From: Trogon surrucura
Taxonomy: Eukaryota; Chordata; Aves; Trogoniformes; Trogonidae
Direction: 5' to 3'
NCBI GenBank assembly: GCA_020746105.1
Contig: CM036657.1
Coordinates: forward strand, 4,601,527 to 4,665,526
Length of the DNA stretch: 64,000 bases
The position numbers and the translations under genes are program-made. The notes under the pieces are model-generated. The model worked only from the letters and a program-made list of their open reading frames with translations. It made no database searches and had not been told where the DNA came from. Of the stretch, positions 10,365 to 54,915 are shown in pieces. How positions within the stretch are numbered: position 1 is the first letter of the stretch; the number at the start of each line of letters is the position of its first letter.

Positions 10365-10382
10365 TGGTGACCCCAACGTGTC
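10365..10382 (+). promoter_or_regulatory. ERV-B primer-binding site, tRNA-Trp-like
   Basis: TGGTGACCCCAACGTG starts two bases after the LTR. It matches the complement of the tRNA-Trp 3' end at about 15 of 18 positions. tRNA-Trp is the primer used by alpharetroviruses. Confidence 0.8.
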
Positions 10383-10595
10383 TACATGCCGCCGTGTTGA
10401 CATGTCGACATTCTAAGAAAAACGACGGGATAACAGAAAAAAGGCGAAAAAACGTGTTTTTTTGGGCTGCAGGTCGACGTGCAGCGGAGACGGAACCTGG
10501 AGTAGCTGAGAGCAGTGGGATTCTGCTTTGGTCCGGACCTGAAAATTAAGACACCTGGAAAGGTGAGCCACCAGGAACAGGGTTTAAGAAATATA

Positions 10596-12580: not shown

Positions 12581-13216
12581 CCAGTGTGACCAAAGAAGTT
12601 ATGAAAGTTCCTATGGATGCCTTTGGCCCCATAGGAAGAGGATTAAGTGCTTTACTAATTGGACGCTCAAGTAGTGCAGTCAATGGCATTATTGTACATG
12701 TTGGTGTTATTGACGCTGATTATACTGGACAAATTTGTGCTGTGGTTTCAACATCATATCCCCCTGTGACTATCCCAAAGGGGTAGCTCAACTGGTTCCT
12801 TTTTTGAGTTCTGTTCCCAATACAGAGCAAAAAGAACGACGAGATCGACTGGCTTGCCTCAAGTGTTTTGGTCTCAGACAGTTACCTCTCAATGGCCACA
12901 GCTGCTTTGTACAGTGACAATGAAAGGACATTCTCCATCATCGGTGCAGCTGTCAGGACTGTTGGACACCGGAGCAGACGTAACCATTATATCTCAGCAC
13001 TCATGGCCATCCACCTGGCCTGTCGGTAACATGGCAATGGGGGTGGTTGGCTTGGGAGGTGCTGCTCAGAGTGTAATGTCAGCTAATACAGTTCTTGTTA
13101 CTAACCCAGAGGGCCAGATGGCTACAATTCGGCCTTACGTGACATACGCCCCGTTGAACTTATGGGGTAGAGATTGTCTTTCCCAGTGGGGAGTTAAAAT
13201 TACCACGGATTTTTGA
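12382..13216 (+). pseudogene. pro: ERV-B pro: dUTPase followed by aspartic protease
   Basis: The frame overlaps the end of gag by about 200 bases in the -1 frame, as in betaretroviruses read by ribosomal frameshift. I did not find a canonical heptamer. The dUTPase part has a GRSS block at about 12661-12672 and a VGVIDADYTG block near 12703-12732. A stop at 12784-12786 breaks the frame, and a different frame continues. The protease at 12854-13216 has the active-site motif LLDTGAD at about 12959 and a GRDCL block near 13168. dUTPase lowers dUTP during reverse transcription, and the protease cleaves Gag-Pol. Confidence 0.82.
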
Positions 13217-17151: not shown

Positions 17152-17395
17152 GTTTGGACACGTTTGTGGAACCTTCTCCCTCAAGATCCGGAGGGATGAG
17201 CCCAGCCGGAAGCTGCTCAGTATTAACCAATTAGAACTTGAACAACAAGTATTTAACCTATAGGCAAAGGTCATGCTACCTTCTTCTACTACCTTCGACT
17301 ATGTATAAAAGGCACACCCTTTGTATAATAAAGGAGTAATTTTTGAACCACTTTGATCACCATACAGATGTGTCGTGTCCATCTCTACAACGACA
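17049..17395 (+). repeat. ERV-B 3' LTR
   Basis: It begins TGTGGGGGAC and ends CTACAACGACA, with TATA and AATAAA elements at the same places as in the 5' LTR. It is followed by the target duplication GTGGTT. Confidence 0.92.
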
Positions 17396-26252: not shown

Positions 26253-26254
26253 AC

Positions 26255-26654
26255 CTATTTTAAAGAACACTCTATGAGTCCCGCCAGCTCGTGACCAAGG
26301 ATCCTTTTTTCCCTTTGTGTCATTTGAACCCCAGTTTGTTTCAGTAGACCAGGTGCCCTGTAGATCTCCCCATGCTTAAAAAATCCAAAGCCAGACCGCT
26401 GGCACCACCCCTTTAGCCAAGTATTAATCTGCTGCACTTTGTCAAACCTATCACTATTTTTCCTCATAATTGAAGGAATAGAGGCAAACACAACCTGTGT
26501 GCCTGATCCTTCTAGCATCCGCCCCAGTGCCCTAAAGTCCCTTTTGATTGCTTCTGGCCGTCTCTCTACTATCTCATCGTTACCGATCTGCATAACCAAA
26601 AGGGGGAAATAGTCCGTGGGTTTGACCAGACCAGGAAGCTTCTTGATAACATCC
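26255..26654 (-). pseudogene. CR1 ORF1 C-terminal half (esterase)
   Basis: This is the C-terminal part of the SGNH-esterase ORF1 (open 26599-26255) with a Gly-Asn-Asp-Glu block near 26580 and a Lys/Arg-rich end. It connects, across the LTR at 26655-27829, to the REVCC-type block at 27835-27866. It is broken by the LTR and by 5' truncation, so no complete ORF1 product is possible. Confidence 0.78.
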
Positions 26655-34100: not shown

Positions 34101-34225
34101 GCACTTCAGCTGGGCTGTTGGCCATGTCACCTTCTTGGTGGAACACCCCTTCATTTTCTTGAGGTGTTCTATAGACGTTTCCCCTTTGGCTCCTACTACC
34201 TCAGGAGCCCCTGGTTCATCCCTGT
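31109..34225 (-). mobile_element. CR1, minus strand, ORF2 broken
   Basis: The 3' end at 31109 has ACAGAAACACAG units. ORF2 runs from the LKCLYTKARS block near 34098 to about 31210. The endonuclease (33324-34154) is open. Breaks follow near 33320, 33120, 32850 and 31960. The RT catalytic box reads LADD near 32140. A non-CR1 insertion at about 31627-31775 splits the C-terminus. The family is close to the copies at 4180-7948 and 38594-41940. Confidence 0.87.
31627..31775. other. About 150-bp non-CR1 insertion flanked by an imperfect 25-bp repeat
   Basis: CCAGATGCGGCCTCAGCAGG at the left and CCAGATGTGGCCTCACCAGG at the right bracket sequence unrelated to CR1. It is AT-rich and has no ORF. It looks like a filler insertion from repair, or a small unknown element with a long target duplication. 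Confidence 0.6.
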
Positions 34226-37095
34226 AACACTTTCATAGAATCATAGAATGTTAGCGAATTGAAGGGACCTCGAAAGATCATCAAGTCCAATCCCCCTGCC
34301 AGAGCAGGAATGCCTCGATAATGCTACATAGGAACGTGTCCAGGCGGGTCTTGAATGTCTCCAGAGAAGGAGACTCCACAACCTCCCTGGGCAGCCTGTT
34401 CCAGAGTTCCGTCACCCTCACTGAGAAGAAGTTCCTTCTCGAGTTTAAGCGGAACCTCTTATGTTCCAGTTTCAGCCCATTACCCCTTGTCCTATCAGTG
34501 GTTGTCACCGAGAAGAGCCTGGCTCCATCCTCGTGACACTCATCCTTGATATATTTGTAAACATTAATGAGGTCACCCCTCAGTCTCCTCTTCTCCAAAC
34601 TAAAGAGCCCCAGCTCCCTCAGCCTTTCCTCATCAGGGAGATGCTCCACTCCCTTAATCATCCTAGTTACCCTGTGCTGGACTCTCTCCAGCAGTTCCCT
34701 GTCTTTCTTGAACTGAGGGGCCCAGAACTGGACACAATATTCCAGATGGGGTCTCACCAGGGCAGAGTAGAGGGGAAGGAGAACCTCTCTCGACTTACTA
34801 ACCACCCCCCTTCTAATACACCCCAGGATGCCATTGGCCTTCCTGGCCACAAGGCCACAGTGCTGGCTCATGGTCATCCTGCTGTCCACCAAGACTCCCA
34901 GGTCCCTTTCCCCTACACTACTCTCTAATAAGTCATTCCCCAACTTATACTGGAACCTGGGGTTGTTCCTACCCAGATGCAAGACCCTACATTTACCCTT
35001 GTTATATTTCATTAAATTTTTCCCCGCCCAACGCTCCAGCCTGTCCAGGTCTCGCTGGATGGCAGCACAGCCTTCTGGCGTGTCAGCCACTCCTCCCAGC
35101 TTGGTGTCATCAGCAAATTTGCTGATTGTACTCTCTAGTCCCTCATCCAAGTCATCGATGAATATATTGAATAATACTGGTCCCAGTACCGACCCTTGAG
35201 GCACTCCACTGGATACAGGTCTCCAACCAGACTCCGCCCCATTGACCAAAACTCTTTGGCTTCTTCCCCTTAGCCAGTTCACAGTCCACCTCACTACCCG
35301 AGAGTCTAGACCACACTTCTGCAGTTTAGCAGCAAGGATGCTGTGGGAGACTGTGTCAAATGCTTTACTGAAGTCAAGGTAGACCACATCCACCGCTCGG
35401 CCATCATCTATCCACCTTGTTATATCCTCATAAAAGGCTATGAGGTTAGTCAAGCACGACTTCCCTTTGGTGAAGCCATGTTGACTGTCTCTAATGACCC
35501 TCTTATCCCTGATATGCCTTGAGATGGCACCAAGGATAAGTCGTTCCATCACTTTCCCAGGGATGGAGGTGAGGCTGACCGGTCTATAGTTACCCGGGTC
35601 CTCCTTCTTGCCCTTTTTGAAGACTGGAGTGACATTTGCTCCCTCCAGTCCTCAGGCACCTCTCCCGTCTCCCAAGACTTGGCAAAGATGATGGAGAGTG
35701 GTCTAGCAATGACATCAGCCAGCTCCCTCAGCACCCGTGGATGCATCCCGTCTGGACCCATGGATTTATGGATGTCCAGATTGCTTAATTGGTCCCTAAC
35801 CCAGTCCTCATCGACTAAAGCAAACTCCTCCACTGCCCTGACTTCCTCTGGGGCCTCAGGGGAATGGGGCTCCTCAGGACAGCCTCCGGCAGAGTAGACA
35901 GAGACAAAGAAGGCATTCAGTAACTCTGCCTTCTCTGTATCTTCTGTCACCAAGGCACCCACCTCATTCATCAGTGGGCCTACATTGCCTCTGGTGTTAG
36001 TTTTATCTGCCACGTATTTGAAAAAGCTCTTCCTGTTGTCCTTGACCCCTCTCGCCAGGTTCAATTCTAGGGAGGCCTTTGCTTTCCTAGTTGCCTCCCT
36101 ACATCCTCGGACAACAGCCTTATATTCTTCCCAAGTGGCCAGCCCCGCCTTCCAAGATCTGTAAATTGTCCTCTTGCACCTCAGCTTACCCAGCAGATCC
36201 CTGTTTAGCCACGCAGGTCTCCTGGCTCCCTTCCTTGACTTCCTACGTGTCGGGATGCTCTGATCTTGAGCACGGTAGAAGCAGTCCATAAATGCTAACC
36301 AACTATCTTGGGCCCCTTTACCTTCAAACAGCCTTGCCCATGGGATTTTCTCTAGTAATTGCTTGAAAAATCCAAAGTTTGCCTTGGCAAAGTCCAGGGT
36401 TGCAATTCTGCTTGCTATTTTGTTTCTGCTACATGAGATCCTGAACTCCACCATTTCATCGGCTCCTCCACCATTTGCATCAGAAAATTATCATCGATGC
36501 ACTGGAGGAACCTCCTGGACTGTGGCTGGCTGGCTGAGTTGTCCTTCCAGCAAATATCAGGGAAGTTAAAATCCCCCATGACAACCAGGGCCTGTGATGG
36601 TGAGACTGCTCTCAGCTGCCTGTAGAAGGCCTCATCAACTTCCTCACCCTGATCTGGTGGCCTGTAATAGACACCCACAACAGTATCTCTCCTGCCAGCC
36701 TGCCCCTTAATTCTAACCCATACACTCTCAACTTGCTCCTCATCCATGCCTGGATGGTATTCAATACATTGTAGTTGCTCTTTCATGTAAAGAGTGACTC
36801 CACCACTTCGCCTGGCTGGCCTGTCTTTCCTGAAAAGGACATAGCTATCTATGACCACATTCCAGTCATGTGAGCTGTCCCACCATGTCTCTGTAATTGC
36901 CACCAGATCATAATCTCCTGCCCGAACCCAGGTTTCTAGCTCCTCCTGCTTATTCCCCATGCTGCGTGCATTGGTGTATAAGCATTTCAGGGAGTAAACT
37001 GAGCACACTGATCTCACCCTAGGGGGATGGGAGGCCACCCGGTCCTCATAATTTCTAGAGCACTGCCCCACTGCAATCCCAGCTATACCCCCAAC
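34226..37095 (-). mobile_element. Young CR1, minus strand, 5'-truncated
   Basis: The 3' end at about 34232 is TCATAGAATCATAG. It is very similar to the copy at 23285-27866 and shares its ORF2 N-terminal block ([10 protein letters not shown]). It is cut in the ORF2 leader at about 37095, where gamma gag begins. The insertion lies directly beside the CR1 ending at 34225. Confidence 0.88.
34281..37080 (-). pseudogene. CR1 ORF2 with a 94-bp deletion and a frameshift
   Basis: It has the same domain order as 23367-26252. The RT C-terminal part (35552-34281) is open and keeps the FADD box near 35107. The normal stop is lost, so the frame runs 12 codons further to 34281. A one-base change of frame near 35640 separates it from the middle (36454-35549). 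At about 36454 a deletion, 94 bp by comparison with the sister copy, removes the end of the endonuclease around CSDHE. Not functional. Confidence 0.87.
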
Positions 37096-37914
37096 CCCAA
37101 TGGGATGAAGTTTCATACGCGGATATGTTTTTTGCTCTCCGAAATCATCCAGAGCGGCAGAGGGACTGTGGGATGGGCCCACCACAGGACCTCATGGTGC
37201 TTGTGTTAGAGAAGGAAAATAATAAAGATCCCAAAGCCAGATTGAAGCAGTGTTGCTCGACGTGCAGTATTGGCCAGAGATGCATTAGAACAGATAAAGT
37301 GCTTCAAACCTCAGAAGAAGACTTAACAAATTTGTTTGCACCCCCTCCTCAACCACAGGAACAACATGTAGACTCGGATACCACTCCTACCCCCCCCCAG
37401 ACAGCCCTGTAGCCTCCCATACTAGACAATAATGCACCTCAGTAATTTTACAGGCGCCCCTTCGAAAGGCAGTAAGGCCTGACAGTGGGACAATGTTAAT
37501 TAAAGTGTCTTTTTCTACTACTGATTTACGAGAACGGAAAAGGGTTGTCAAGGATTACAGGAGCGATCCAGTGATGCTATCTAAACACTTTCAGTTTATA
37601 GTGAAACAGCATAACCCTGATGGGAATGATATACAGTTATTGCTAGAATATGCGACTGAGACAGAGAAGCAGCTGATTTTAACAGTGGCAGGGGATCTGG
37701 CTGAAGACCATTATAAAACAACGGGGGGGGGGGGGGGAACGTTAAAGAACATTTCACCCTCCAAGATCCAAAATGGGATCCGAATAGGTCCGCCCACATG
37801 GAAAGGCTGCAGGTCTATCAAGAATGGATTTTAAAGGGAATGGAAAGGGCAATTCCCAAAACCATAAACCGGTCAGCCGGTTTAGAGGATCATTTTCTGT
37901 TTCACTTCATTGAG
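37096..37914 (+). pseudogene. gag: Gamma-type gag fragment, plus strand
   Basis: A matrix-to-capsid segment: an RNHPERQRDCG-like block near 37140, a Pro-rich linker near 37340-37390, then capsid APLRKA and HNPDGNDIQ blocks (37493-37720). A run of 15 G at about 37723-37737 and several frame changes break it. The homologous order to 20794-21659 and 50451-52133 supports the call. It is a different copy from either. Confidence 0.72.
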
Positions 37915-38563
37915 GGCCGGTTTAGCTCAGTGGGTTGAGCGTGGTGCTTGAAACACCAAGGTCGCGGGTTTGATTCCCGTTCGGTTAGAAGGGGGGTGGT
38001 TAGTAGGTTGAGAGAGGTTCTCCTTCCCCTCTACTCTGCCCTGGTGAGACCCCATCTAGAATACTGTGTCCAGTTCTGGGCCCCTCAGTTCAAGAAAGAC
38101 AGGGAACTGCTGGAGAGAGTCCAGCACAGGGCAACTAGGATGATTAAGGGAGTGGAGCATCTCCCTTATGAGGAAAGGCTGAGGGAGCTGGGGCTCTTTA
38201 GTTTGGAGAAGAGGAGACTGAGGGGTGACCTCATTAATGTTTACAAATATATCAAGGGGGAGTGTCACGAGGATGGAGTCAGGCTCATCTCAGTGACAAC
38301 CACTGATAGGACAAGGGGTAATGGGCTGAAACTGGAACATAAGAGGTTCCGCTTAAACTCGAGAAGAAACCTCTTCTCAGTGAGGGTGACGGAACACTGG
38401 AACAGGTTGCCCAGAGAGGTTGTGGAGTCTCCTTCTCTGGAGACATTCAAGACCGGCCTGGACATGTTCTTATGTAACATTATCTAGGCGTTCCTGCTCT
38501 GGCAGGGGGATTGGACTTGATGATCTTTCGAGGTCCCTTCCAGTCCCTAAGATTCTGTGATTC
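37915..38563 (+). mobile_element. tRNA-Ile-like head fused to a 575-bp CR1 tail
   Basis: The head at 37915-37987 has a full A-box (TAGCTCAGTGGG), a five-pair anticodon stem with loop CTTGAAA, and a B-box (GGTTTGATTCC). It resembles a nuclear tRNA-Ile apart from the anticodon loop and a broken acceptor stem. From about 37984 the sequence is CR1 ORF2 C-terminus and 3' UTR of the young local subfamily, ending in ATTCTGTG. The join has GTTAG microhomology. The CR1 part is open from 37948 to 38487. The tail is much longer than in ordinary tRNA-CR1 SINEs. Confidence 0.75.
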
Positions 38564-39097: not shown

Positions 39098-41870
39098 TGT
39101 CTGTATACCAATGCAAGAAGCATGGGGAATAAGCAGGGAGAATTAGAAATCTATGTGCAGCTGGAGAACTATGATCTCATTGCAATTACAGAGACGTGGT
39201 GGGACAGCTCACATAACTGGAATGTGGCCCTTGATGGCTATGTTCTTTTTAGGAAAGACAGACCGATGAGGTGAGGTGGGGGAGTTGCTCCTTACGTGAG
39301 AAAGCAACTGGAGTGTATTGAGATCCATCCAGGGGCAGATGAGGAGCAAGTAGAGAGTTTGTGGGTGAGAATTAAGGGGCAGGCTAGCTTAGGTGTCACT
39401 GTGGTGGGTGTCTATTACAGACCACCTGATCAGGAGGAGTAAGTTGGTGAGGCCTTTTACAGGCAGCTGACAGTAGCCTCTCAATCCCAGGCCCTGGTTC
39501 TCATGGGGGATTTCGACTACCCAGATGTTTGCTGGAAGTCCCACACAGCCAGCCATCCTCAGTCCAGGGGGTTTCTCCAGTTCATCAATGAAAACTTCTT
39601 GATGCAAATGGTGGATGAGCCAACCAGGAGAGGAGCGCTGCTGGACCTTGTGTTCACCAACAAGGAAGGTCTGGTTGAAGCAGTGAAGGTTGAGGGTAAT
39701 CTTGGCTGCATCGACCATGAGATAGTGGAGTTCAGGATCCTGTGCGGTAAAAACAGAATACCAAGCAGGATCGCAACTCTGGACTTCAGAAGGGCCAACT
39801 TTGGCCTCTTCAAGCAATTGCTGGAGGATACCCCTTGGGACAGGGAGCTGCAAGGTAAAGGGGCCCAAAAGAGTTGGTTGGCATTCAAAGACCACTTCTT
39901 TGAGGCTCAGGATCAGTGCATCCCATCAGGTAGGAAATCAAGAAAGAGATCCAAGAGACCTGCATGGTTAACCAGGGATCTGCTGGGCAGACTCAGGTGG
40001 AAGGGGAGGTTATATAAATTGTGGAAGGAAGGGCTGACCCCTTGGGTGGAGTATAGGACAGCTGTCAGGGAGTGTAGGGAGGCAACTAGAAAAGGTCAAG
40101 CCTCCTTGGAATTAAAACTTGCAAGGGAGGTCAAGGACAACAGAAAGGACTTCTTCCAATACTCTGCTGACAAAACTAACACTAGAGGCAGTGTAGGCCC
40201 TCTTGTGAATGAGGTGGGTGCCCAGGAGACAGAGGACAGAAAGAAGGCAGAGTTGCTGAATGCCTTCTTTGCCTCTGTCTACACTGCTGGAGACTGTCCT
40301 CAGGAGCCTCAGTCCCCTGAGGCCCCAAAATAAGCCAAGATAAAGGAGGAGTTTGCCCTGATTGATGAGGACTGGGTTAAGGATCAGTTTGAACACTTAA
40401 ACATTCATAAATCCATGGGCCCTGATGGGATGCACCCACAGGTGCTGAGGGAGCTGGCGGGAGTCATTGCTAGGCCACTCTCCATCATCTTTGGTAAGTC
40501 ATGGGGAACAGGTGAGGTGCCTGAAGACTGGAGGAAAGCGAATGTCACTCCACTCTATAAGAAGGGCAGGAAGGATGACCCGGGTAACTACAGACCGGTG
40601 AGCCTCACCTCCAACCCTGGAAAGGTGATGGAACATCTTATCCTTGATGCTGTCTCTAGGCATATCAAGGATAAGAAGGTTATTAGGAGCAGTCAGCATG
40701 GCTTTGCCAAGGGGAAGTCATGTCTGACCAACCTGATAGCCTTTTATGAAGGCATAACCAGGTGGATGGTTGATGGCCGTGCAGTGGATGTGGTCTATCT
40801 GGACACCAGCATGGCATTTGACACCGTCTCCCACAGCATCCTCATAGGTAAACTGAGGAAGTGTGGTCTGGATGACCAAGTAGTGAGGTGGGTCGGGAAC
40901 TGGTTGAAGGGAAGAAGCCAGAGAGTTGTGGTCAATGGGGCAGAGTCTGGCTAGATGCCTGTGTCTAGTGGGGTCCCTCAGGGGTCAGTGCTCAGGCCAT
41001 TGCTGTTCAGTATACTTATCAGTGACCTTGATGAGGGATTAGAGAATGTTGTCAGCAAGTTTGCTGATGACACAAAACTGGGATGAGTGGTTGACACACC
41101 AGAAGGCTGTGCAGACATTCAGAGAGACCTGGACAGGCTGGAGGGCTGGGCAGGGAGAAATCTTATGCGGTTCAACAAGGGCAAGTGTAGAGTCTTCCAC
41201 TTGGGAAAGAATAACCCCATGTGCCAGTACAGGTTGGGGACTGCCCTGCTGGAGAGCAGCACAGGGGAAAGGGACCTGGGGGTTCTAGTGGACAGCAGGA
41301 TGACCATGAGCCAGCAATGTGCCCTCGTGGCCAAGAAGGCCAATGGCATCCTGGGGAGTATTAGAAGGGGAGTAGCAAGTAGGTCAAGAGAGGTCCTCCT
41401 GCCCCTCTACTCTGCCCTGGTGAGGCCGCATCTGGAATATTGTGTCCAGTTCCGGGCCCCTCAGTTCAAGAAGGACAGGGAGTTGCTTGAGAGAGTCCAG
41501 CACTGGGCAACTAGGATGATTAAGGGAGTGGAGCATCTCCCTTATGAGGTAAGACTGAAGGAGCTGGGTCTCTTTAGCTTGGAGTAGAGGAGGCTGAGGG
41601 GTGACTGCATTCATGTTTATAAATATGTCAAGGGTGAGTGTCAGGAGGATGGAGCCAGGCTCTTTTCAGCAGCGTCCATTGACAGGACAAGAGGCAATGG
41701 GTGCAAGCTGGCACATGGGAGGTTCCATAAAAATATGAGAAAAAAATTTTTCACAGTGAGGGTGACAGAGCACTGGAACAGGCTGCCCAGGGAGGTTGTG
41801 GAGTCTCCTTCTTTGGAGACCTTCAAAACCCACCTGGACGCATTCCTGTGCAGTCTGCTGTAGGTGGTCC
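39098..41870 (+). pseudogene. CR1 ORF2 with several stops
   Basis: The endonuclease and RT are in the usual order. In-frame stops lie at 39272-39274, about 39440, 40331, 40953, 41084-41086 and about 41585. The catalytic box FADD near 41062-41073 is intact. CSDHE reads CIDHE near 39708. The first and fifth stops coincide with the two stops of the copy at 5090-7858, and the rest are private. Confidence 0.87.
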
Positions 41871-43751: not shown

Positions 43752-43755
43752 CCAC

Positions 43756-44260
43756 TGTTGCCCGTAAACAAAGACACAAACCAACAGAGTGTCAGTTTAT
43801 GCGGTGCTTTATTCAGGGCCCGGGAAACCTGCGGACTAGCGTCCAAAGTCAGGATTCCAAAGACCCTCATTTTCTGTTTAATTTTTATACCTTTTACAAC
43901 TTGGCTTACATACAGAATTCTACATCATACAGAAACAATTGATAATTATCCCCAAACTTATAAATTTTCATGCTTGTCTAACCTAAGGATAATGGTTAAC
44001 TGATTCCCATCACCAGAACCCCTTTGTTTATACAATACACCTTTCTTATCCCTAAGCAACTGTTCCCTAAGCAACTGTTCGTTATTTCTGCTAGTCCTGT
44101 TTGTCCTATATGCCCTACTGATTCCTTTGATTATTGTTCCTTCTTTCTCAGTACATTCCTTCTTGTTTTCCTAGACTTGTTATTCTCATAAGGCCTACCT
44201 GGCCAGTCAAAGCCTTAACCTAACTACTTCTACAATTTTAATTCTACTTTATTTGCAACA
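43756..44260 (-). repeat. Gamma provirus 3' LTR
   Basis: The sequence matches 52516-53020 at 504 of 505 positions by eye. It is preceded on the minus strand by the polypurine tract at 44261-44273. Confidence 0.95.
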
Positions 44261-44273
44261 AGTCCCCCCTTTT
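44261..44273 (-). promoter_or_regulatory. Polypurine tract
   Basis: On the minus strand AAAAGGGGGGACT directly precedes the TGTTGC start of the 3' LTR. Confidence 0.9.
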
Positions 44274-44312
44274 GAGCATTCTTCGATTATCTTCGCAAGG
44301 ATGCTCAACCAT

Positions 44313-45255
44313 TTAGGTTGTCGTCTCTTGATAAGCGGGTGGGTTGTCTGGATGGGGTTGCAGGTGGTTCTGCGGGAATATCACTTCTCTGCGCGTCATC
44401 GCCTTCATGACTCTCCGAGTATGTTGTCCTTCTCTCATGATCATTCCTAAAAGACACTTATACGTAATCAAGGCAACAATGATAATCACAACAATCATGA
44501 TTCCATATTGCACAATAGATGATATCCAACCAGAAACTCGAATTCCCAGGGAGCTGAATATTTCTCCTATCCAATTGTGTTCTGCTTCCTTCTGAATTTC
44601 GTGGACTTTCCCTTCGATTTGTTCCAATTGGCTAACGTCCTTTTCAACTTCTTGAGTAACGTTTGGGATGTGCACACAACAATGATCAATTCTACCATGC
44701 AGGTACCCACAAACTCCATGTTCCTTTAATAACATCAGGTCCAAGGCCATTCGATTTTGTATTGTCATTCTAGTGGTTGCTTGTAGTTGTAGATTCAAAT
44801 CCCTAAATCCCTTCTTAGTTACTGCTGCAAGCCTTTCAGTTTGTCCCAATAATTTAAACAACATTTCCCGATTCCGATATGTTGATACCTGTGCAAATAT
44901 AGATTCTAACACCCACCCAAACTTAACCCCTGAAGATGGTTCGTGCCACTCGTCATTTCCTAATCCTATGTCGTCGATATCATCACCAATATCCCGTTTT
45001 TGCCTTCCCTGCATTTCCTTTGTGGTGAGTTTTGAATATTTCCAGAATGGACAAAGTGTTGGGACTCCCAAGGTAATCTGAGTAGCTGGCCCATCGACAG
45101 CCATATGTGTGGTCCAATATCCATGTCCCATTACCCATACCAGATTTCCTGGACTCCTTACTGTGGCTGTTTTGCAATCAACTTGCTTTAAACTTTCTCT
45201 GATGGAATGATTATAACCTCTACACTCACAACCAATGCAATAGCATTCGAACTGG
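44313..45255 (-). pseudogene. env: Env TM subunit of the gamma provirus, out of frame with SU
   Basis: It is open from about 45250 to the stop at 44313. In order: a Cys-rich SU end, a basic cleavage site RQKR near 45010, heptad repeats, and an IQNRMALDLMLL segment near 44750 in the position of the immunosuppressive-like region. A Cys followed nine residues later by CC comes next (gammaretroviruses usually have six between). Then come a membrane anchor near 44440-44530 (IMIVVIIIVALI) and a tail with PPAY near 44325, a late-domain-type motif. TM mediates membrane fusion. A frame change between about 45230 and 45260 separates it from SU. Confidence 0.87.
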
Positions 45256-46956
45256 CATTAAACCAATATGTTCATCAGGAGTGTCACAAGTGTAAATTTG
45301 TGTACAATTCCAATCCCCTATTAACTGTGTCTCTTTTCTCCATTCACTACTTTCCTTATACATCTGTGAATAAGTTTGATTCTTCTTTCCCTTCCAATGT
45401 ATACACCAATGTACTGGTCCAATATAACTATATGTTTCTAACAGGCTTGGTCCCCAGATTGTTTGCCATTGTTTCATCGTTGTAGAATTGGTGATATTTT
45501 GGCACACTTCCTCTCGCTTCTCTTGTTTTTCCCGAGTTCTCATTTTACTACATAAATCAGGGCCTCGAGGGTGCACTACACTGTCTCGAATTAAACAATT
45601 TCCTTTAATTTTCGGGTCTTCAATCCATCCATAATATCCTGGGTTTTGCTCACACTGTTTCTTAGTTATTTTTGTTTTGCTAATCAATATACAAACATTT
45701 ACCCATTCATAAGTTGTGGTAGTGACAAACTTGCAATTCCAGGAAACATTCTGTAACATTTTGGGCATTTCGAGAACTGGTATAATTCCCCAGGGTATGG
45801 GATCACCTGCTGCATGCGGCATAGGTAAACATGCTGTAATGGTTGTGGCATTCTGAATTTGTCCAAAATCTCTAATTAGTCCTACTATTAAATTTTCTTG
45901 ACTCCCAGCTTTAGCTAGTTTACCATCTTCGATAACCTGTCGAACCACTCTTTTCTTCTTTATATACACCGTCGCCATTCCATTAACCCACCAATCATCC
46001 CGGGCTATCCAGCACCAATATCGTCCTATATCAATTTCCCTGCTCACCTTTTTAATGATCAAGACTATCGATTGGAACCTATTTTCAATTCGGTATTTTC
46101 CTCCTGTTTCTAAATTCTTTCCCTTATACCACCACCCGTAATCCGAATAACTTAAATTTCGTACAAGACAATTTAGAATCACGTCTTTTCCTTCCACTGC
46201 CGGATATGTTCCATGTTCTGGCCTTATTCCCTGATGCTGATGGGGTACCGACTCTACGTTTCTAATCCCATAGTTTCCGCTAGCTCCACAAATAACAATG
46301 CACAAATATTTCCCTTCTGTCCTCCCAACCCTGGGATTTGTTATATTTAACCATCCTTTACCTCCCAACTTATTTGACCTCCAGCTTACCCCTGCTGTTT
46401 GTGGGTCCCACATTTGCTGACTGGCATTGAACTTCCACCACTTCACTTGGACCTTTTGACTGCACTGTGTTCCAAATTTAAAGGTACAATTTATCTTCAA
46501 CGGGGGGCCATCCCACATTTCCACCCTCTTGTTTGCTGGGATTATCTGAATTGCATCCCTAGTCTCCTCTTTCTGTGAAGTGTTAGTAACGTATAGATTC
46601 ATATCCCCATAATCAACACTATACCGTATCCAGATCACACAGGTGTATTTTCCTTCATTGTCTTTTGACACTTTGGGTATCTGCAGGGTAGTTTTCCCTT
46701 CCTGACGTGTCACATCCCAGATGGTTTCAATTCCTTTTGTGATTAATTCATCTCCCGTGATCCACCTCCATCTCGCATTAATTTCCTCAAATCCAGCTCC
46801 CTGGTCATCAGTAAACAAACAAGTCAAGTTAACATCAGTAGTTTCAGGTACTAACAGATACGGTTCAGACACATTAACTTTTACATGAGTTTCTACCAAT
46901 GCCAACAGATGAAAGAGAACCATTACTCCTAATTTTTGCTTCTGAATACCATTCAT
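45226..46956 (-). CDS. env: Env SU with three N-terminal Ig-like domains (576 codons)
   Basis: The ATG at 46956-46954 is chosen because it overlaps the pol stop (ATGA) and starts a signal peptide (KQKLGVMVLFHLLALV). Three segments then carry the Ig pattern. Domain 1: Cys46, Trp63/65, then KDNEGKYTC to Cys106. Domain 2: Cys157, Trp173/174, then EGKYLC to Cys219. Domain 3: Cys263, Trp275/276, then IGRYWC to Cys315. A KKKR linker near residue 334 leads to an SU-like part with about ten Cys and many N-glycosylation sites. Domain 3, with its YWC ending, recalls the CD300/pIgR-type V-set. The frame ends at 45226 just after a frame change. SU binds receptor, and the role of the Ig part is unknown. 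Confidence 0.85.
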   Translation of the reverse strand: MNGIQKQKLGVMVLFHLLALVETHVKVNVSEPYLLVPETTDVNLTCLFTDDQGAGFEEINARWRWITGDELITKGIETIWDVTRQEGKTTLQIPKVSKDNEGKYTCVIWIRYSVDYGDMNLYVTNTSQKEETRDAIQIIPANKRVEMWDGPPLKINCTFKFGTQCSQKVQVKWWKFNASQQMWDPQTAGVSWRSNKLGGKGWLNITNPRVGRTEGKYLCIVICGASGNYGIRNVESVPHQHQGIRPEHGTYPAVEGKDVILNCLVRNLSYSDYGWWYKGKNLETGGKYRIENRFQSIVLIIKKVSREIDIGRYWCWIARDDWWVNGMATVYIKKKRVVRQVIEDGKLAKAGSQENLIVGLIRDFGQIQNATTITACLPMPHAAGDPIPWGIIPVLEMPKMLQNVSWNCKFVTTTTYEWVNVCILISKTKITKKQCEQNPGYYGWIEDPKIKGNCLIRDSVVHPRGPDLCSKMRTREKQEKREEVCQNITNSTTMKQWQTIWGPSLLETYSYIGPVHWCIHWKGKKNQTYSQMYKESSEWRKETQLIGDWNCTQIYTCDTPDEHIGLMPVRMLLHWL

Positions 46957-49900
46957 GTAGGAGATAAAGTTTCTACCGACCATCGCATAGGAACTTTCTT
47001 GACTCTGGTGTAATGAATCCAGTTGTCTATCCCGCCGACCTTGACAGCCGTATAGGTGGTCATGATCACCTGGTGAGGACCGTCCCATGTTTCTTTCAGG
47101 GGTTCCACTGACCAGTTCCTTACATAAACTTGGTCTCCCGGAAGTATGTCGTGGACTGGATTATCCAGTGATAGAGGTCGATTCCACTGTAGTGCTCCTC
47201 TAATAGCTGTAAGAGTCTTATTTAGAGATAACACATAATTTAGTATCATCTGGTCTCCTACCAGATGGGGGTCTCCCTTATAAGTAACTGCATGGTAGGG
47301 TTTGCCGTATAGGATCTCATACGGGCTTACTCCTAACCTTTCCCTTGGTTTAATTCTAATTCTTAGTAGAGCTAACGGCAATGCCTGCGGCCACTGAATT
47401 TTTGCCTCTTGGCAGATTTTCTTAATTTGACCCTTTAGAGTCTGATTCATCCTTTCCACTTGCCCGCTTGATTGTGGTCTCCAAGGAGTATGCAAATTCC
47501 AGGTTATCCCTAATACTACTGAAACTTGTTGGACAATTCCTGCTGTAAAATGTGGGCCCCTATCTGATGATATCCCTAACGGAACCCTGAATCTGGGGAT
47601 GATCTCTTTCAGAAGTGTTTTCACCACCTCTTTAACTTGATTAGTTCTACAAGGGAAGGCCTCAGGCCATCCTGAAAACGTACACACGTACACCAGAAGA
47701 TATTTATACATTTGGGTTTTTGGTAGCTCAGAAAAATCAATCTGCCAGTAATCTCCCGGTTGAGGCCCTACTTGCAGCTTGCCCATCTGAATCTGTTTCC
47801 TAATTACTGGATTGTTTTTAATACATACCGGACACATAGCATTTATTCTCTTTGCTAATGTTAACATCTGGTTTGAGAATATGTCATTTTTCAGGAATTT
47901 CACCATTGCTTCTGCACCCCAATGACATTTGTTGTGTTCTGATTCTAGTATTGCTTTCATAATTCTTACCGGCAATATTACTTGTCCCACCGGAGTTACA
48001 TACCAGCCTTTGATGTTCTTCCTTGCCTGTAACATTTGAGCCAGTTTTTCATCTTCCGGTGAGTAGTGTGGTTTCTCATCCATATATGCAGCAGCCGGTT
48101 GATGTCGAACTGGTATTAGTGCCATTTGAGTCCATACCTCTCTTGCCACTTGTCTGGCAACCTGATCAGCTCGCCGATTCCCTTGAAATTCTTTTCCTGG
48201 ATCATTTTGGTGTCCTTTAACATGCATTACTGCCACTGCTAATGGTTTGTAGATAACTTCCAGTAGTAAACTAACTTCAGTTTTGTGTTTAACCGTCAAT
48301 CCTTGCGAATTGAGAAGCCCCCTCTCTTTCCACAGAGCCCCATGCACATGCACTACTCCAAAAGCATATTTAGAGTCTGTCCAAATATTGACTTTCTTTC
48401 CTTGGCTCAGGATTAGGGCTCTTATTAGAGCCCAGATCTCGGCCTTTTGTGCCGATGTGCCTGGGGGTAGCGCTTTTGCTTCTACTATTTGCTGTAATGT
48501 GACCACTGCATATCCCGCATACCTGGTACCATTTTCCACGAAGTTGGATCCATCCGTAAACAGCTCCCAGTCCGGATCTGGTAGGGGTACGTCCTTCAAG
48601 TCCTTCCGGCTGGCATACACCTGCTCAATCACTTCCATGCAATCATGTTCTAATTCTCCTTCTTCCTGTGTGGACCTTAAAAACTCCGCTGGGTTGAGAT
48701 GGTTAGTTACTTTCAATTCCACATCATCCTGTTCCCTTAACTGGGCCTGGTATTGGAGCATTCTGCTTGATGAGAGCCAATGCCCCCCTTTTTGTTCCAA
48801 TACTGCTATAACCATGTGGGGTACAAAGACTGTTATGTGTCTTCCCAACGTTAGCTTACGGGCTTCCTGAATCAAGAGTACTGTGGCCGCCACTGCCCTC
48901 AAACATCCCGGTCATCCTCCGCTTACCGTATCCAACTGTTTGGAGAAATATCCCACAGGCCTCTTCCAGGATCCCAGCTTTTGGGTAAGCACACCCAGGG
49001 CCAGTCTCTGTCTTTCATTTACATATAGTTGAAAGTCCTTATTCAAATCCGGCAAACCCAAAGCAGGTGCCTCCTTGAGTGCCCTTTTCAATTCCTGGAA
49101 TGCCTTTTCCTGCACCTTTCCCCATCTAAATACAGACACTTTTGTTGCTTCATAAAGCGGTCTGGCCATCAATCCAAAATTTGAAATCCACAAGCGACAC
49201 CAACCGACCATCCCTAGAAAGGATCTTAATTCTTGGTGATTGCGGGGCACGGGGATTGCGCATATTGCTTGGACGCGATTGGCTCCCAATCGGCGAACCC
49301 CTTGCGAAATTTCACATCCCAAATAGATGACCTTTTGTTTTACTAACTGTGCTTTTTCTTTGGATACCCGGTATCCAGCCTGTCCCAACATATTCAATAA
49401 TTCAATAGTCAATTGTTGGCAGAGATTTCGATTCGTAGCACCCAGGAAAATATCATCTACATACTGCAACACAACATAGGAAAAAGGTGAGTCCTTTACC
49501 TGGGTAGTTTTCCATCCTTCGAGCTCCTTGGCCAGCTGATTTCTGAAAATTGTAGGTGAGTTCTTAAATCCTTGAGGTAACCTGGTCCAGGTGAGTTGGC
49601 GCTTACGTCCAGTTTCCGGATTTTCCCATTCAAATGCAAAAATATTTCTGCTCTCAGGTGCCAGAGGGATGCAGAAGAAAGCATCTTTCAAATCAATTAC
49701 TGTAAACCACTGAAATTTCTCAGACACAGATGTTAACAAAGTATATGGATTGGCTCCTACTGGGTGTATATCTTTGGTGATGGAATTTACTGCTCGTAAG
49801 TCCTGTACTAGTCTGTATTTACCGTTGGGTTTTCTAACTGGGAAAATTGGAGTATTGAACTCGGATTCACATTCCTGCAAAATTCCTAATACCATATACT

Positions 49901-50450
49901 GAGTTATCATAGCGGCTATTCCTTTCCGGGCTTCCAGCTTAATAGGATACTGACGTATCCTTACTGGTCGGGCCCCCTCTTTTAATTCCACTATCGCAGG
50001 TACTGCTGCCTTCGATTTCCCTGGCGCTCCTGTTTCCCACACCCATGGTACTACAGCCTGCTCAATCTCTGGTGGTATTTCCTCCTTCTCCACCTCCCTA
50101 ACCATAAAGATTTTCGCTAAATTTTCCTCCGGTATTTCTAATTTTACTCTTCCTTTTTCAAATATGATTTGTGCTTGTAATGCTGAGAGTAAATCTCTTC
50201 CCAGTAGACACTCTGGACTGCTTGGCGTATATAAAAACTGATGGTCAAACTCCTTTCCCCCAAATTTTATATCGAGTGGCCGCAGGAATGTCCTTTCCTC
50301 TACTTCCCCAGTTACCCCAACAACAAGCACTGTAGAATCACTCAGAGGTCCCATTTGTTTATTCATTGCCGAAAAACTTGCCCCGGTATCTACCCTAAAT
50401 TCCATCGGTTCCCCCCCTATTTCCAAAATAACCTTTAAATCCCGGTCTAG
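46953..50450 (-). pseudogene. pol: Gamma provirus pro-pol, one in-frame stop
   Basis: It continues the gag frame after UGA. Protease has VDTGAS near 50390. RT has SEFNTPIFPVRKPNGKYR near 49850, LPQGFKNSPT near 49575 and YVDD at 49452-49463. A TGA at 48912-48914 stops the frame between RT and RNase H. RNase H (TDGSN near 48545, TDSKYAFG near 48375) and integrase follow. The integrase has HHCC zinc region near 47800-47930, QIDFSE near 47740, SSDRGPHF near 47560, VERMNQTLK near 47450 and a chromatin-type C-terminus near 47000-47160. Pol would cleave Gag-Pol, copy RNA and integrate DNA. The single stop is the only defect I see. Confidence 0.9.
48912..48914 (-). other. In-frame TGA within pol
   Basis: This is the only stop between the gag UGA and the end of pol at 46953. 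It falls in the linker between RT and RNase H. It is not followed by CUA, so it does not share the leaky context of the gag stop. Confidence 0.85.
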
Positions 50451-50453
50451 TCA
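50448..50453 (-). promoter_or_regulatory. Gag stop with UGA-CUA readthrough context
   Basis: On the minus strand gag ends AGC TGA CTA GAC, and protease follows in the same frame with no further stop for over 500 codons. Gammaretroviruses make Gag-Pol by reading through a single stop. UGA followed by CUA is a leaky context known from alphaviruses and some cellular genes. I did not model any downstream pseudoknot. Confidence 0.78.
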
Positions 50454-52133
50454 GCTCTGATTCTGATAATTTTTCATCATAAAAGCTTGAGCGACACCTT
50501 GTGGTCCTCCTACAAAAGGGTTCATTCCGTTACCAGAATTCATCCCTCCGTCCAAATTCATCCCATTTCCTAATGCATTTCCACCTATGTTACCACCCAC
50601 TGGTGTTCCCATCCCCAAATTAAGTGGGCACTCCCTTTTCCAGTGTCCCTGGCCCTTACACAGCGCACATTGATTAGGTCCCAACTTTTCCCGACCTCCC
50701 GGGACTTGATTTCCAAAACCCCCAAACCCGAAGTTTCTTCCTCGTTCATTACCTCTTCCTCTCCCCCGGCCCCTTCCTCTATTATTTACTTGAGAAGCCT
50801 GTTGCAGGACTGCCAGCATACTCGCTTGCTGTTTCTTTACCGATTCCTTTTCCCTACTATTATATACTTTCCAGGCCACTTCTAATAATTTCTCCAAGTT
50901 CCGTGTATCTTCCCCTTCTAGCTTCTGCAGCTTTTTCCTAATGTCCTCCTGAGATTGTCCCATAAAAATCAATGCCAATTGTAATTTGCCTGACTCAGCT
51001 TCCACATCCAAATCCGTATATCTCCGAGCCGTCTCCTTCAGTCTCTCTAAAAACGCCGATGGTGACTCCCCTTTGTCTTGTCTTACCAAATACAATTTAG
51101 ACCAATTCAATGTTTTCGGAATCCCTTCGCGTATCCCATCTATCAATAATTCTTGGTACGCTTTCAGTCTACGATACCCCTCCCCGGAGTTGGGATCCCA
51201 CTCGGGATCTTCTCTGGGCACCAAATTATTAATAGTATCACCTTTAATAACCCGCATCCTAACCATTTCTCGCGCACGATCTGTCATAGCCTTAAACACC
51301 ATCTCCTTTTCAGTGGAATCCATTATGGTATCTAATAACACCTGTAAATCATTCCAATCTGGATTTTGTGCTTTTATCACCATTTTTATTACCCGAGCCA
51401 CCTTCTCCGGATTTTCTCTATATGCCCCTGCCGATTGCTTCCAAATCATCAGATCACTCGGAGAAAATGGGACCTTTACTAAAATTCTTTCTCCAATTCC
51501 CCCCACAGCCTCCCGTAACGGGGCCATCAACTGAGGTTGTAGCAATCTCTTTTTCCGTTCTAACCTCCCTTTACGAGTCCGCTCTGCAAGCGGTGTTCTC
51601 GGCTTATCAGCCAACAATTCTCCAGACTCCGTTTCCTCTTCTGATATAACAGGAATAGTGACCTTATGGTCATTCAGTGGTGGTATTTCGGGGGCCGACG
51701 GCGCGCTTGGGGAAACTAACAAAGACACATCCTCCTCCGGTTCCGAGAACCAGACTTTCCGCTCCTTACAACCAGCACATTCCTTATCTATTGATCCCAA
51801 TACCATCATTCCACATTCTTTCTGCCACTCAGGTTTCCCTTTTAAATAATAAAATAAGTCAAGATACGGCACCTCTTCCCATTTTTCATTTTCCCGTAAG
51901 AACTGCATTAAGGGGGTTATAATTTCTGAATTCACTGTACCGTTTCGTGGCCACTGCATCCCTTCTGTTTCATATTCAGGCCATACATAATTACAATAAT
52001 CAATTAAATTTCTCTTTCTTAATTCCTTTCCAAAATTACCATCTTTCCAACGTTTCAATAAACAACCAAGAGGAGAATCCTCAGGGATATCGATTTCATT
52101 GCACGATAGAACTCTAAACATTTTAAACGGCAT
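50451..52133 (-). CDS. gag: Gamma provirus gag, 560 codons, intact
   Basis: The first ATG is at 52133-52131. A second in-frame ATG lies four codons later. Neither is followed by Gly, so N-myristoylation is not predicted. Matrix carries SPLGCLLKRW near 52070. A PSAP late-domain motif lies near 51705. Capsid has FSPSDLMIW near 51465 and QNPDWNDLQ near 51370. A coiled Lys/Glu region and an RGRGRGRGRG stretch near 50770 lead to one zinc knuckle CALCKGQGHWKREC at about 50631-50672, the single-knuckle layout of gammaretroviruses. The C-terminal tail is Gly/Asn/Met-rich. Gag forms the virion core. Confidence 0.92.
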   Translation of the reverse strand: MPFKMFRVLSCNEIDIPEDSPLGCLLKRWKDGNFGKELRKRNLIDYCNYVWPEYETEGMQWPRNGTVNSEIITPLMQFLRENEKWEEVPYLDLFYYLKGKPEWQKECGMMVLGSIDKECAGCKERKVWFSEPEEDVSLLVSPSAPSAPEIPPLNDHKVTIPVISEEETESGELLADKPRTPLAERTRKGRLERKKRLLQPQLMAPLREAVGGIGERILVKVPFSPSDLMIWKQSAGAYRENPEKVARVIKMVIKAQNPDWNDLQVLLDTIMDSTEKEMVFKAMTDRAREMVRMRVIKGDTINNLVPREDPEWDPNSGEGYRRLKAYQELLIDGIREGIPKTLNWSKLYLVRQDKGESPSAFLERLKETARRYTDLDVEAESGKLQLALIFMGQSQEDIRKKLQKLEGEDTRNLEKLLEVAWKVYNSREKESVKKQQASMLAVLQQASQVNNRGRGRGRGRGNERGRNFGFGGFGNQVPGGREKLGPNQCALCKGQGHWKRECPLNLGMGTPVGGNIGGNALGNGMNLDGGMNSGNGMNPFVGGPQGVAQAFMMKNYQNQS

Positions 52134-52491
52134 TATACTACTCACACACACACACACTCGTACAACTACGATACTATAACCCTTTTACCTTAATACCAAC
52201 CAACTTGCCTATTCTCGACGCCGCGAGTGGCAAGTGCTGGCTCAGCGCGGCTTTCGCTGCGTCTTACGGCCAGCGCCTAGGCTTCCCAATACCAGAACCT
52301 TTGCCCAACCCTGCGAGATAAGTCCTCGTCTTATGGGCAGGCACCCAACCTTAAAAGAATAAAGCACCTTCGGGCTTACCTTACGGTTGTCCGTCCAGCG
52401 CGGAGTCGGGCACGGGTTGATGTCTCCCCAGAAATCACCTGGTGCCGGCTTGGAGTGGATCAGCCCGTGAACCGCTCCTGCCGCCTCCGGA

Positions 52492-52509
52492 GTCCTGCCG
52501 CGGTCACCA
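52492..52509 (-). promoter_or_regulatory. Gamma provirus primer-binding site
   Basis: On the minus strand TGGTGACCGCGGCAGGAC starts six bases after the LTR. The TGG start is as expected for a tRNA CCA end. I could not assign the tRNA with confidence. Confidence 0.6.
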
Positions 52510-52515
52510 GAAAAC

Positions 52516-53020
52516 TGTTGCCCGTAAACAAAGACACAAACCAACAGAGTGTCAGTTTATGCGGTGCTTTATTCAGGGCCCGGGAAACCTGCGGACTAGC
52601 GTCCAAAGTCAGGATTCCAAAGACCCTCATTTTCTGTTTAATTTTTATACCTTTTACAACTTGGCTTACATACAGAATTCTACATCATACAGAAACAATT
52701 GATAATTATCCCCAAACTTATAAATTTTCATGCTTGTCTAACCTAAGGATAATGGTTAACTGATTCCCATCACCAGAACCCCTTTGTTTATACAATACAC
52801 CTTTCTTATCCCTAAGCAACTGTTCCCTAAGCAACTGTTCGTTATTTCTGCTAGTCCTGTTTGTCCTATATGCCCTACTGATTCCTTTGATTATTGTTCC
52901 TTCTTTCTCAGTACATTCCTTCTTGTTTTCCTAGACTTGTTATTCTCATAAGGCCTACCTGACCAGTCAAAGCCTTAACCTAACTACTTCTACAATTTTA
53001 ATTCTACTTTATTTGCAACA
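52516..53020 (-). repeat. Gamma provirus 5' LTR
   Basis: On the minus strand it starts TGTTGCAAATAAAG. U3 holds a tandem 15-bp repeat, a TATA box (GGTATAAAAATT) lies near 52650 and the polyA signal (TGAATAAAGC) near 52568. It ends ACGGGCAACA. This promoter would drive the provirus. Confidence 0.95.
52811..52840 (-). repeat. 15-bp tandem repeat in U3
   Basis: CCTAAGCAACTGTTC occurs twice head to tail here and again at 44051-44080 in the other LTR. Short U3 duplications often act as enhancers in retroviruses. Confidence 0.85.
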
Positions 53021-53024
53021 CCAC

Positions 53025-53197
53025 AATAGATCTCCTACTTCACGCCATTCCGTTGAACTAAAGATTAATGACGGGTCGTTCATTTTCTCCCGCTTCCGAG
53101 CCCGTTGGATCAGGGCCAATACATCTCGCTCCTTTACTTTTTCTCCTCTCTTAGAGAGTATACCAACAAGGAGGCGAGTTGCCGCGTCAGTTTCCAT
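53025..53197 (-). pseudogene. gag: ERV-D gag start (matrix)
   Basis: It opens with the ATG at 53197-53195 (METDAATRLL) and is a betaretrovirus-like matrix start, but without Gly at position 2. It is interrupted by the gamma provirus after about 57 codons and continues in frame at 43751 (the 4-bp CCAC duplication lies at the break). The leader between this ATG and the primer site is about 175 bases. Confidence 0.78.
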
Positions 53198-53373
53198 CGC
53201 GGTCTTACCTTGGCAGGGGCTTGATCGGCCACTCAAACTCTGGTGTCCGGTGCCCTCTTGATCACGCCTGGGTTTCTCCTGCCTCCGGCTCTCCGACTCC
53301 CAAATCGGCTCACGTCCAATGCTTCAGAGTCTTTCCGTATTCAAGCAATTTGCATTTAAGCAATTCCCCATTT

Positions 53374-53391
53374 AAGCCTGTTCGGGCGCCA
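53374..53391 (-). promoter_or_regulatory. ERV-D primer-binding site, tRNA-Lys
   Basis: On the minus strand TGGCGCCCGAACAGG starts two bases after the LTR. This is the exact complement of the tRNA-Lys3 3' end for its first 15 bases. Confidence 0.9.
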
Positions 53392-53393
53392 GA

Positions 53394-53763
53394 TGAAGAG
53401 GGTCCCTTTGGAGAGCTGGTCAAGACGATGACAAATTCCACCGATACGGTTACATGTCGCCCTCCCTTTATTGCTCCAGACAGCTCAATATATACAGTTA
53501 AACAGTGTCCACGCACCTGCCCCTTAACAGAGTTGGTCAGTTACAGGTTTACACGTGCCAGCGTTTTATTGGGTAGTGCCATTAAACTATGCAGGCGGCT
53601 CTCGCCTCCCCTCTCCCCCCGGCAAGGCTACGAAACAGCTACACCTCCTCCTCTCCGTGCCCCAAGGCAGCTTCAAGGACAGAGTCTTTATTTAGGCCCA
53701 AGCTGGGTTGTCCAAACCTTTAAAGGATTACTGAGGCCCTGCTCCACAAGAAATTCCTCTACA
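53394..53763 (-). repeat. ERV-D 5' LTR (family A)
   Basis: On the minus strand it starts TGTAGAGG and ends CCCTCTTCA, matching the family A LTRs at 42949-43350 and 60446-60847. As it is the only copy followed by a primer site, it identifies family A as a class II, tRNA-Lys ERV. Confidence 0.92.
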
Positions 53764-53984
53764 ACCTCACCCTTTATGCGAATAAAGTTAAGACTCCTCT
53801 GTCTTTGTGAACACTGACCTCTGGCAAGGTGATTTTCCATACAGAAGGAAGCAGAACTTTACTAACATTTGGAGAAGCCAGCATTGCAAAGAGAGGCTTT
53901 ATTTGCTGATTACCAGCAACCAAGCCTCACACTGCATTCTGGCTTTCTGGGCTGTGAGCACACATTGCTGTCTCCTTTGTCAGC

Positions 53985-54915
53985 GACATGGTCGATGGCA
54001 TTGAGTGCGCCCTCAGCAAGTTTGCCAATGACACCAAACTGTGTAGGGCCGTGGACTCACTTGAGGGAAGAGATGCCATCCTGAGGGACCTTGATAGGCT
54101 TGAGAAATGGGCCAGTGCAAACTGCATGAGCTTCAACAAGTCAAAATGCAAGGTCCTTCACCTGGGTCGGGCCAATCCTAGGCACAAATACAAACTGGGC
54201 ACAGAGTGGGTTGACAGTAGCCCTGAAGAGAAGGAAATTGGGGTGTTGACAGACGAGAAGCTCAACATGAGCCGGCAGGGCGCTCATGCAGCCCAGAAGG
54301 CCAACCGCATCCTGGGATGTATCAGGAGAAGCGTAGCCAGCAGGTCAAGAGAGGTGATTCTGCCCCTTTACTCTGCTCTTGTGAGACCCCACCTCGAATA
54401 CTGCGCCCAGTTCTGGTGTCCCCACCATAAGAGGGACATAGAACTGTTAGAACGTGTTCAGAGGAGGGCAACAGAAGTGATCCAGGGGCTGGAGCACCTT
54501 TGCTATGAGGACAGGCTGCAGGAGCTGGGATTGTTCAGTCTTGAAAAGAGAAGACTTCGGGGGGACCTAATAGCTGCCTTCCAATACCTGAAGGTATTCT
54601 ACGGAAAGGCTGGGGAGGGACTTTTTACAAGACCATCCAGTGATAGGACAAGGGGAAATGGGTTTAAGGTGAAGGAGAATAGATTTAGATTAGATCTTAG
54701 GAAGAAATTCTTCAGTATGAGTGTGGCAAGACTTTGGAATAAATTGCCCAGAGATGTTGTGGCTGCCCCCTCCCTGGAGGTGTTCAAGGCCAAGTTGGAC
54801 AGAGCCTCGAGTAGCCTGATCTAGTAGAGAGGCGTCCCTGCCCATGGCAGGGAGGTTGGATTAGATGATCTCTAAAGTCCCTTCCAACCTAGGCCATTCT
54901 ATGATTCTATGATTC
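53985..54915 (+). mobile_element. 5'-truncated CR1, plus strand
   Basis: Starts in RT just before the catalytic box, which reads FAND (near 54018), and runs through the RT C-terminus to a 3' UTR ending in ATTCTATG units. The frame from 53988 to 54824 is open for 278 codons. It is a different subfamily from the young minus CR1s (DDEKLNMSRQ-type block). It has the same 3' UTR type as the SINE-like unit at 17497-17638. Confidence 0.88.

Follow-up and report, generated by a model that had tools for sequence, protein, structure and literature searches.

The 64,000-nucleotide stretch of the Trogon surrucura genome analyzed here, hereafter the window (GenBank assembly GCA_020746105.1, contig CM036657.1, positions 4,601,527 to 4,665,526 of the forward strand), contains a gammaretrovirus-like provirus whose envelope gene (env) encodes three tandem immunoglobulin-like (Ig) domains ahead of the surface subunit (SU). 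As read from sequence and predicted structure, the envelope protein (Env) consists of a signal peptide, Ig1, Ig2, and Ig3, a basic [RK]xxR linker, SU, and the transmembrane subunit (TM). The provirus occupies 9.3 kb of the minus strand (43756-53020) between long terminal repeats (LTRs) of 505 nt that differ by a single mismatch, at 44202, including a 5' LTR at 52516..53020 with the ends TGTTGC...GCAACA and a 3' LTR at 43756..44260 with a polypurine tract immediately upstream. The sequence GTGG at 43752-43755 and 53021-53024 forms a 4-bp target-site duplication around the element. Just past the 5' LTR (52495-52515, minus strand), TGG starts only six bases on.

The internal genes all lie on the minus strand. 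The gag gene (50451..52157) matched Gag_p30 (5.8e-35) and, below the cut-off, a zinc knuckle (0.0051), and ends at a TGA, reading in the frame of pol. The protease and reverse transcriptase (RT) segment (48912..50426) had as its best solved match the RT/RNase H p80 structure (9.7e-118), which we take to be a gammaretroviral entry, and also matched the RT of Moloney murine leukemia virus (2.5e-70). The RNase H and integrase segment (46953..48902) ends in a C-terminal domain of the murine leukemia virus (MLV) type (MLVIN_C, 1.2e-13). The three segments share one frame with a single stop dividing gag from pol, and a second in-frame stop, the TGA at the end of 48912..50426, breaks pol in the window copy. 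The element was assigned to the class I endogenous retroviruses (ERVs) on the basis of its Gag p30, the common frame of gag and pol, the MLV type of its RT and integrase C-terminus, its LTRs of the form TG...CA, and its 4-bp target-site duplication. The provirus is young yet defective in both pol and env.

The env open reading frame (ORF; 45226-46956, minus strand) encodes 576 amino acids, and an in-frame upstream ATG at 47088 extends it to 620 amino acids through a part (46957..47088) that overlaps the 3' end of pol. The signal peptide region (46891..46956, residues 1-22) forms a hydrophobic helix at residues 6-19 in the predicted model. The first ~335 residues comprise three tandem Ig domains according to Pfam, profile comparison, and the AlphaFold model, with a B7-like V-set domain 1 (46585..46887, residues ~24-124), domain 2 (46237..46563, residues ~132-240), and an I-set-like domain 3 ending in YWCW (45955..46230, residues ~243-334). 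The Ig sandwich, cysteine pair, and core tryptophan of the immunoglobulin superfamily were present for each domain in the sequence profiles and the model. Pfam matches to the ORF included Ig_3 (4.2e-13), I-set (2.4e-10), and ig (1.6e-09), the strongest stretches falling within domains 1 and 3. When searched alone, domain 2 of the window gave no Pfam match; among its relatives in a five-member alignment, one matched Lep_receptor_Ig (0.0056) and one ICAM_N (0.059), the domain 2 profile matched the profile of domain 1 at an hhalign probability of 91, and in the AlphaFold model domain 2 is a beta sandwich aligning to Ig structures. The VIA-align list, a re-examination of the Foldseek matches, covers the Ig part and not SU, much of which falls below pLDDT 50 in the model.

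A prior sequence-only reading had proposed three immune-receptor-type Ig domains ahead of SU, and the Pfam matches and predicted Ig fold upheld this; neither outcome that would have spoken against it, a lack of Ig matches or of an Ig fold, occurred. The proposed cysteine pairs 46/106, 157/219, and 263/315 were confirmed, and a further pair (165/223) was identified in domain 2. In an alignment of 22 sequences including the window, counting those with a residue at the column, the cysteines were conserved at C46 (19/20), C106 (21/21), C157 (16/16), C219 (16/16), C263 (12/12), and C315 (12/12). A chance Ig-like pattern was ruled out by the Pfam matches, predicted fold, and cysteine conservation.

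Domain 1 is nearest to the B7 ligands PD-L2, PD-L1, and CD276, not exclusively and with a sequence likeness at the level of the family. Its profile, built from seven sequences, matched 738 Protein Data Bank (PDB) sequences at E up to 0.1, and B7 ligands (CD276, PD-L2, PD-L1, and ICOS ligand) made up 51 of the best 60 of these 738, the 51 representing four proteins with PD-L1 highly redundant. Within the best 60, CD276 ranked first via two domain copies of 34-36 bits each, and PD-L2, ranked after the insect protein DIP-alpha, scored about 45 bits, including with chains limited to the V domain. The PDB matches of domain 2, five in all, were weak and only to BTLA (0.047) and PD-L2 (0.45). Domain 3 showed a broad I-set-like match among the best 60 of 130, and its supposed CD300/pIgR character found little support; pIgR appeared among the weaker matches, below titin, CEA, DSCAM, and NCAM chains, and with nothing specific an origin from CD300/pIgR was rejected. 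No nectin occurred among the best 60 of 738 matches for domain 1, the best 60 of 130 for domain 3, or the five for domain 2, these being profile searches and not a direct comparison with nectins.

The linker KKKRVVR (45940..45960, residues 333-339) carries the conserved [RK]xxR motif, a putative furin-type site, and is followed by SU (45226..45939, residues 340-576), truncated near its end by a frame break in the window copy. An [RK]xxR motif was found 12-27 residues ahead of SU in 28 of 29 sequences including the window (against an expectation of 0.088 for stretches drawn at random from those proteins), RxxR in 25 of 29 (expected 0.055), and Rx[KR]R in 8 of 29 (expected 0.020), the 29 being related sequences and not independent events. 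The basic site before SU occurs in Envs with and without Ig domains. TM (44313..45131) contains a fusion core, a membrane span, and a C-x9-CC motif, and its frame is open from about 45155 while the SU frame stops at 45226. The expectation of a normal TM held for the fusion core and membrane span, but TM lies in another frame and its matches were weak (15.2 bits for TLV_coat, where the cut-off is 22.5; best PDB match 0.0018), the core weakly resembling ERV, MLV, syncytin, and filovirus structures. The C-x9-CC spacing was present in 30 of 30 fetched proteins having C-x(5-10)-CC, in contrast to the usual C-x6-CC.

Searching with the window ORF retrieved 22 homologues, of which 19 were Env-like, whether whole proteins or fragments, and three poxviral. 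Predicted relatives of 668-928 amino acids carry Ig, SU, and TM in one protein, including those of manakin (910 amino acids), white-eye (827 amino acids, starting inside domain 1), and canary (928 amino acids) and another of 921 amino acids; since the window LTRs are young and these relatives have undivided proteins, the layout is that of a recently active lineage. Counted by alignment, two Ig domains occur in Envs such as Prinia P0013 and Melospiza P0020, and one in Manacus P0007, Catharus P0036, and P0017. A search with SU-TM alone retrieved 38 proteins, including a kakapo Env of 679 amino acids with one Ig-like domain and a mousebird fragment with Ig domains. The Ig matches of P0036 and the kakapo protein fall under the Pfam cut-offs. 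Ig-bearing Envs occur in passerines and in a mousebird, and a parrot has a one-Ig form that scores weakly. Sister Envs without a recognized Ig domain were identified in Ammospiza, Prinia, and duck, the last fused to pol in its gene model. Among these Ig-less sisters, the SU start motif lies 59 and 67 residues from the N-terminus, compared with 174 in the kakapo Env, and P0044 begins with a signal-peptide-like stretch and ends in a cytoplasmic tail, with every listed Env match in TM and none in SU. The layout is not confined to this locus, and among the related Envs the number of Ig domains varies from three to one, with Ig-less sisters also present. The barn swallow proteins P0015 and P0021 are predicted to read from integrase into the Ig block, and database annotation of such loci is confused.

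A tree of SU (28 sequences) separated 21 sequences on one side (100/100), including the Ig-bearing passerine and mousebird Envs, from seven on the other, where the kakapo Env and the Ig-less Envs fall. The number of Ig domains is scattered over this tree, with 16 changes where shuffling gives a mean of 16.6 and a count as low in 90 of 200 shuffles, so that either Ig domains are often gained and lost or partial gene models distort the labels. As the Ig-less sisters possess the basic site and no other N-terminal domain was seen, the sequences suggest as the simplest history that the Ig domains were inserted between the signal peptide and a pre-existing cleavage site.

A profile built from three poxvirus proteins and the window Ig block retrieved 11 proteins, including eight named poxvirus proteins, P0028 (classed as poxviral by likeness and tree position), and two Env-like sequences (P0004 and the fragment P0032). 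The named proteins are homologues that stand alone, without SU or TM; seven are avipoxviral, from shearwaterpox (two), crowpox, albatrosspox/penguinpox, mudlarkpox, and finch poxvirus (two), and the eighth is from Cheloniid poxvirus 1. Identity to the window block was 39-49% in eight poxvirus sequences (seven named plus P0028), P0027 being absent from this comparison and from the leader test below. The poxvirus proteins span all three Ig domains, and most of them terminate close to the point at which the retroviral linker starts; P0027 starts within Ig1. Scans of viral contigs found no DNA relative of the poxvirus gene. In a published shearwaterpox study, SWPV1-183 is paired with CNPV081 and SWPV2-155 is listed with CNPV166 and named Ig-like domain protein, and a search of its text for 'retrovir' gave no match (PMC5390406).

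Trees of the Ig block were built with 24, 27, 29, and 18/13 sequences, mostly excluding fragments and pol-Env fusion models; the long-branched P0020 was included in those of 24 and 27 sequences and left out of that of 29. The poxvirus sequences formed one clade in each (100/100, 99/97, 100/100, and 100/99), beside manakin or manakin and flycatcher Envs. Furthermore, the residues just upstream of the window ATG at 46956, inside the pol ORF and encoded by the last ~10 codons of the upstream env part, resemble the N-termini of several poxvirus proteins, with 0 of 2000 shuffles reaching the value of the window for P0029 and P0031 and a fraction of 0.0025 for P0028 and P0030. Because these codons exist in the provirus through the env/pol overlap, seen in the window copy alone, the likeness would be explained by transfer from retrovirus to poxvirus, a direction that the sequences make quite likely. 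The Ig and SU trees place the window differently. Holding the window together with the manakin and flycatcher sequences in the Ig tree was not rejected (p 0.097; 0.37 with the poxviruses), holding it with P0003 and P0004 in the SU tree gave p 0.039, and no claim of recombination is drawn.

Other elements were also identified in the window. A second ERV (10050-17382, plus strand) with LTR-like repeats at 10050-10349 and 17083-17382 (95% alike) carries Gag_p24, an RT thumb, integrase, and an Avian_gp85-type env fragment, unlike the gammaretroviral element. Beyond the provirus, two plus-strand ORFs of 212 and 278 amino acids (53179-53817 and 53988-54824) had no Pfam match at 0.01. ORFs of long interspersed nuclear elements (LINEs) with endonuclease and RT, presumably CR1-like from their layout, were found on both strands (4161-7858, 23367-26270, 31961-37185, and 39503-41587), and a tRNA-like Rfam match (45.6 bits) lies within LINE sequence at 37916-37986 (plus strand).

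Compared with known systems, the gag, pol, and kind of TM resemble viruses with gamma-type Envs (TLV_coat, itself matched by several relatives; the TM cores of MLV and ERVs, syncytin-1/2, and filovirus GP2), from which the element differs in the three Ig domains ahead of SU, the extra basic site before SU, and C-x9-CC in TM. The Env of foamy viruses consists of leader peptide, SU, and TM and is cut twice by furin; it likewise has a basic site ahead of SU besides that at the SU/TM junction, but its leader is not known to contain an Ig block. The avipoxvirus SWPV1-183/CNPV081 and SWPV2-155/CNPV166 groups are homologous over the three Ig domains and partly the leader, but are stand-alone genes without SU or TM that mostly end near the linker start. 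The nearest precedent found is the nectin-3 capture of crocodilian CrocERV31, a vertebrate ERV likewise encoding a host-derived protein of three Ig-like domains; there a recognizable nectin-3 replaced env, whereas here the Ig block precedes a retained SU and TM and domain 1 is B7-like (PMC4299795). De2, the PD-L1 homologue of a dolphin gammaherpesvirus, is likewise a viral protein whose V domain is of the PD-L type, and it is reported to bind host PD-1 and inhibit T-cell signaling (PMC9514091). De2 is a two-Ig membrane protein reported to be 60% identical to a cellular ligand, in contrast to the family-level likeness of domain 1 (PMC9514091). The proposal that no gammaretroviral Env of this layout had been described agreed with the literature searched, by titles and abstract starts with most subscription papers and preprints outside its scope, in which no Env with N-terminal Ig domains was found. 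No retroviral Env that carries captured immune-receptor domains ahead of its SU-TM part is known to us.

The reading somewhat favored here is that the window env belongs to a recent avian gammaretrovirus-like provirus with an added three-Ig module acting as a cleaved immune modulator, and that poxviruses captured this block. A furin-like protease would cut the linker as well as the SU/TM junction, such that each Env precursor may yield the SU-TM fusion machinery and a soluble or loosely held Ig protein. This protein may bind host immune receptors or ligands such as B7-type partners and damp antiviral responses, and the ancestor of the avipoxviruses and Cheloniid poxvirus 1 would have captured the Ig block once from a retrovirus of this group. 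The more specific proposal, that env is a polyprotein also yielding a secreted B7-like modulator through a second furin-type cut and that the cassette moved from retrovirus to avipoxviruses, falls slightly short of an even chance. Release is preferred over a role in attachment mainly because the poxvirus version stands alone.

Several observations weigh against this reading. The window env is unable to make SU-TM as a single protein with its two frames, most linkers have the minimal RxxR form with Rx[KR]R confined to the eight sequences above, P0022 is without any basic site, and P0030 continues beyond the end of the block. DIP-alpha ranks third for domain 1 (49 bits for the whole chain), making the B7 match non-exclusive. 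Monophyly of the Env sequences with respect to the poxviruses and outgroup was not rejected by the approximately unbiased (AU) test (p 0.35 and 0.22), and the outgroup, the kakapo Env (P0043) and P0023, was chosen by the analysts and has long branches. In the leader comparison, which was anchored by eye with the anchor columns left out and in which P0010 could not be anchored, values were only 0.034-0.036 for P0011, P0014, and P0026 (the leaders of P0014 and P0026 being identical), and five other Env sequences gave 0-0.063. Finally, no host donor gene emerged for the Ig domains, the 11 proteins returned by the Ig-block profile including no bird host gene, although donors may lie beyond the reach of that search. 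Receptor use or a decoy role of a captured immune-receptor ectodomain, as the sequence-only reading proposed, is still an inference.

An alternative function is that the Ig block stays on SU as its receptor-binding part, with entry via a partner of the B7-like protein as a new receptor. The block sits at the N-terminus, the place of gammaretroviral receptor-binding domains, the Ig-less sisters have no other recognized domain in the 59 and 67 residues before SU, and an Ig number differing between lineages would suit receptor switching. The complete P0044, however, implies that SU can do without the Ig block, the basic site between the two is conserved, and the poxvirus versions indicate that the block can act without Env, leaving retention on SU rather unlikely. 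The direction of transfer could also be reversed, with the Ig block first a poxvirus gene derived from a bird B7-like gene and later acquired by the retrovirus. The separate clade of all poxvirus sequences and the AU result accommodate such an origin, and capture of PD-L1 by a large DNA virus is known (PMC9514091). In the best trees rooted with P0043 and P0023, however, the poxvirus clade nests inside the Env sequences, the SU tree assigns the parrot Env to the sister group (100/100), several poxvirus blocks begin with residues like those encoded inside pol in the window, and Env blocks are more varied in layout than those of poxviruses, making a poxvirus origin improbable. Least probable is that the Ig-Env is now a host gene for a soluble decoy or regulator with the proviruses as remnants; long proteins of this type have been annotated at many loci in birds, but the window copy is a broken, young provirus that has a target-site duplication and LTRs almost identical to each other, and the relatives are divergent.

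Under the favored reading of a cleaved and captured module, an immune-acting cassette has probably moved from one kind of virus to another, unrelated one. Should the Ig block be released, env would be the source of a secreted immune modulator, a type of product otherwise familiar from large DNA viruses. The shared cassette would represent concrete gene flow between a bird retrovirus and poxviruses and points to an origin of the poxvirus 'Ig-like domain protein' genes, and the natural variants with three, two, one, or no Ig domains on related Envs are suited to testing the role of the module.
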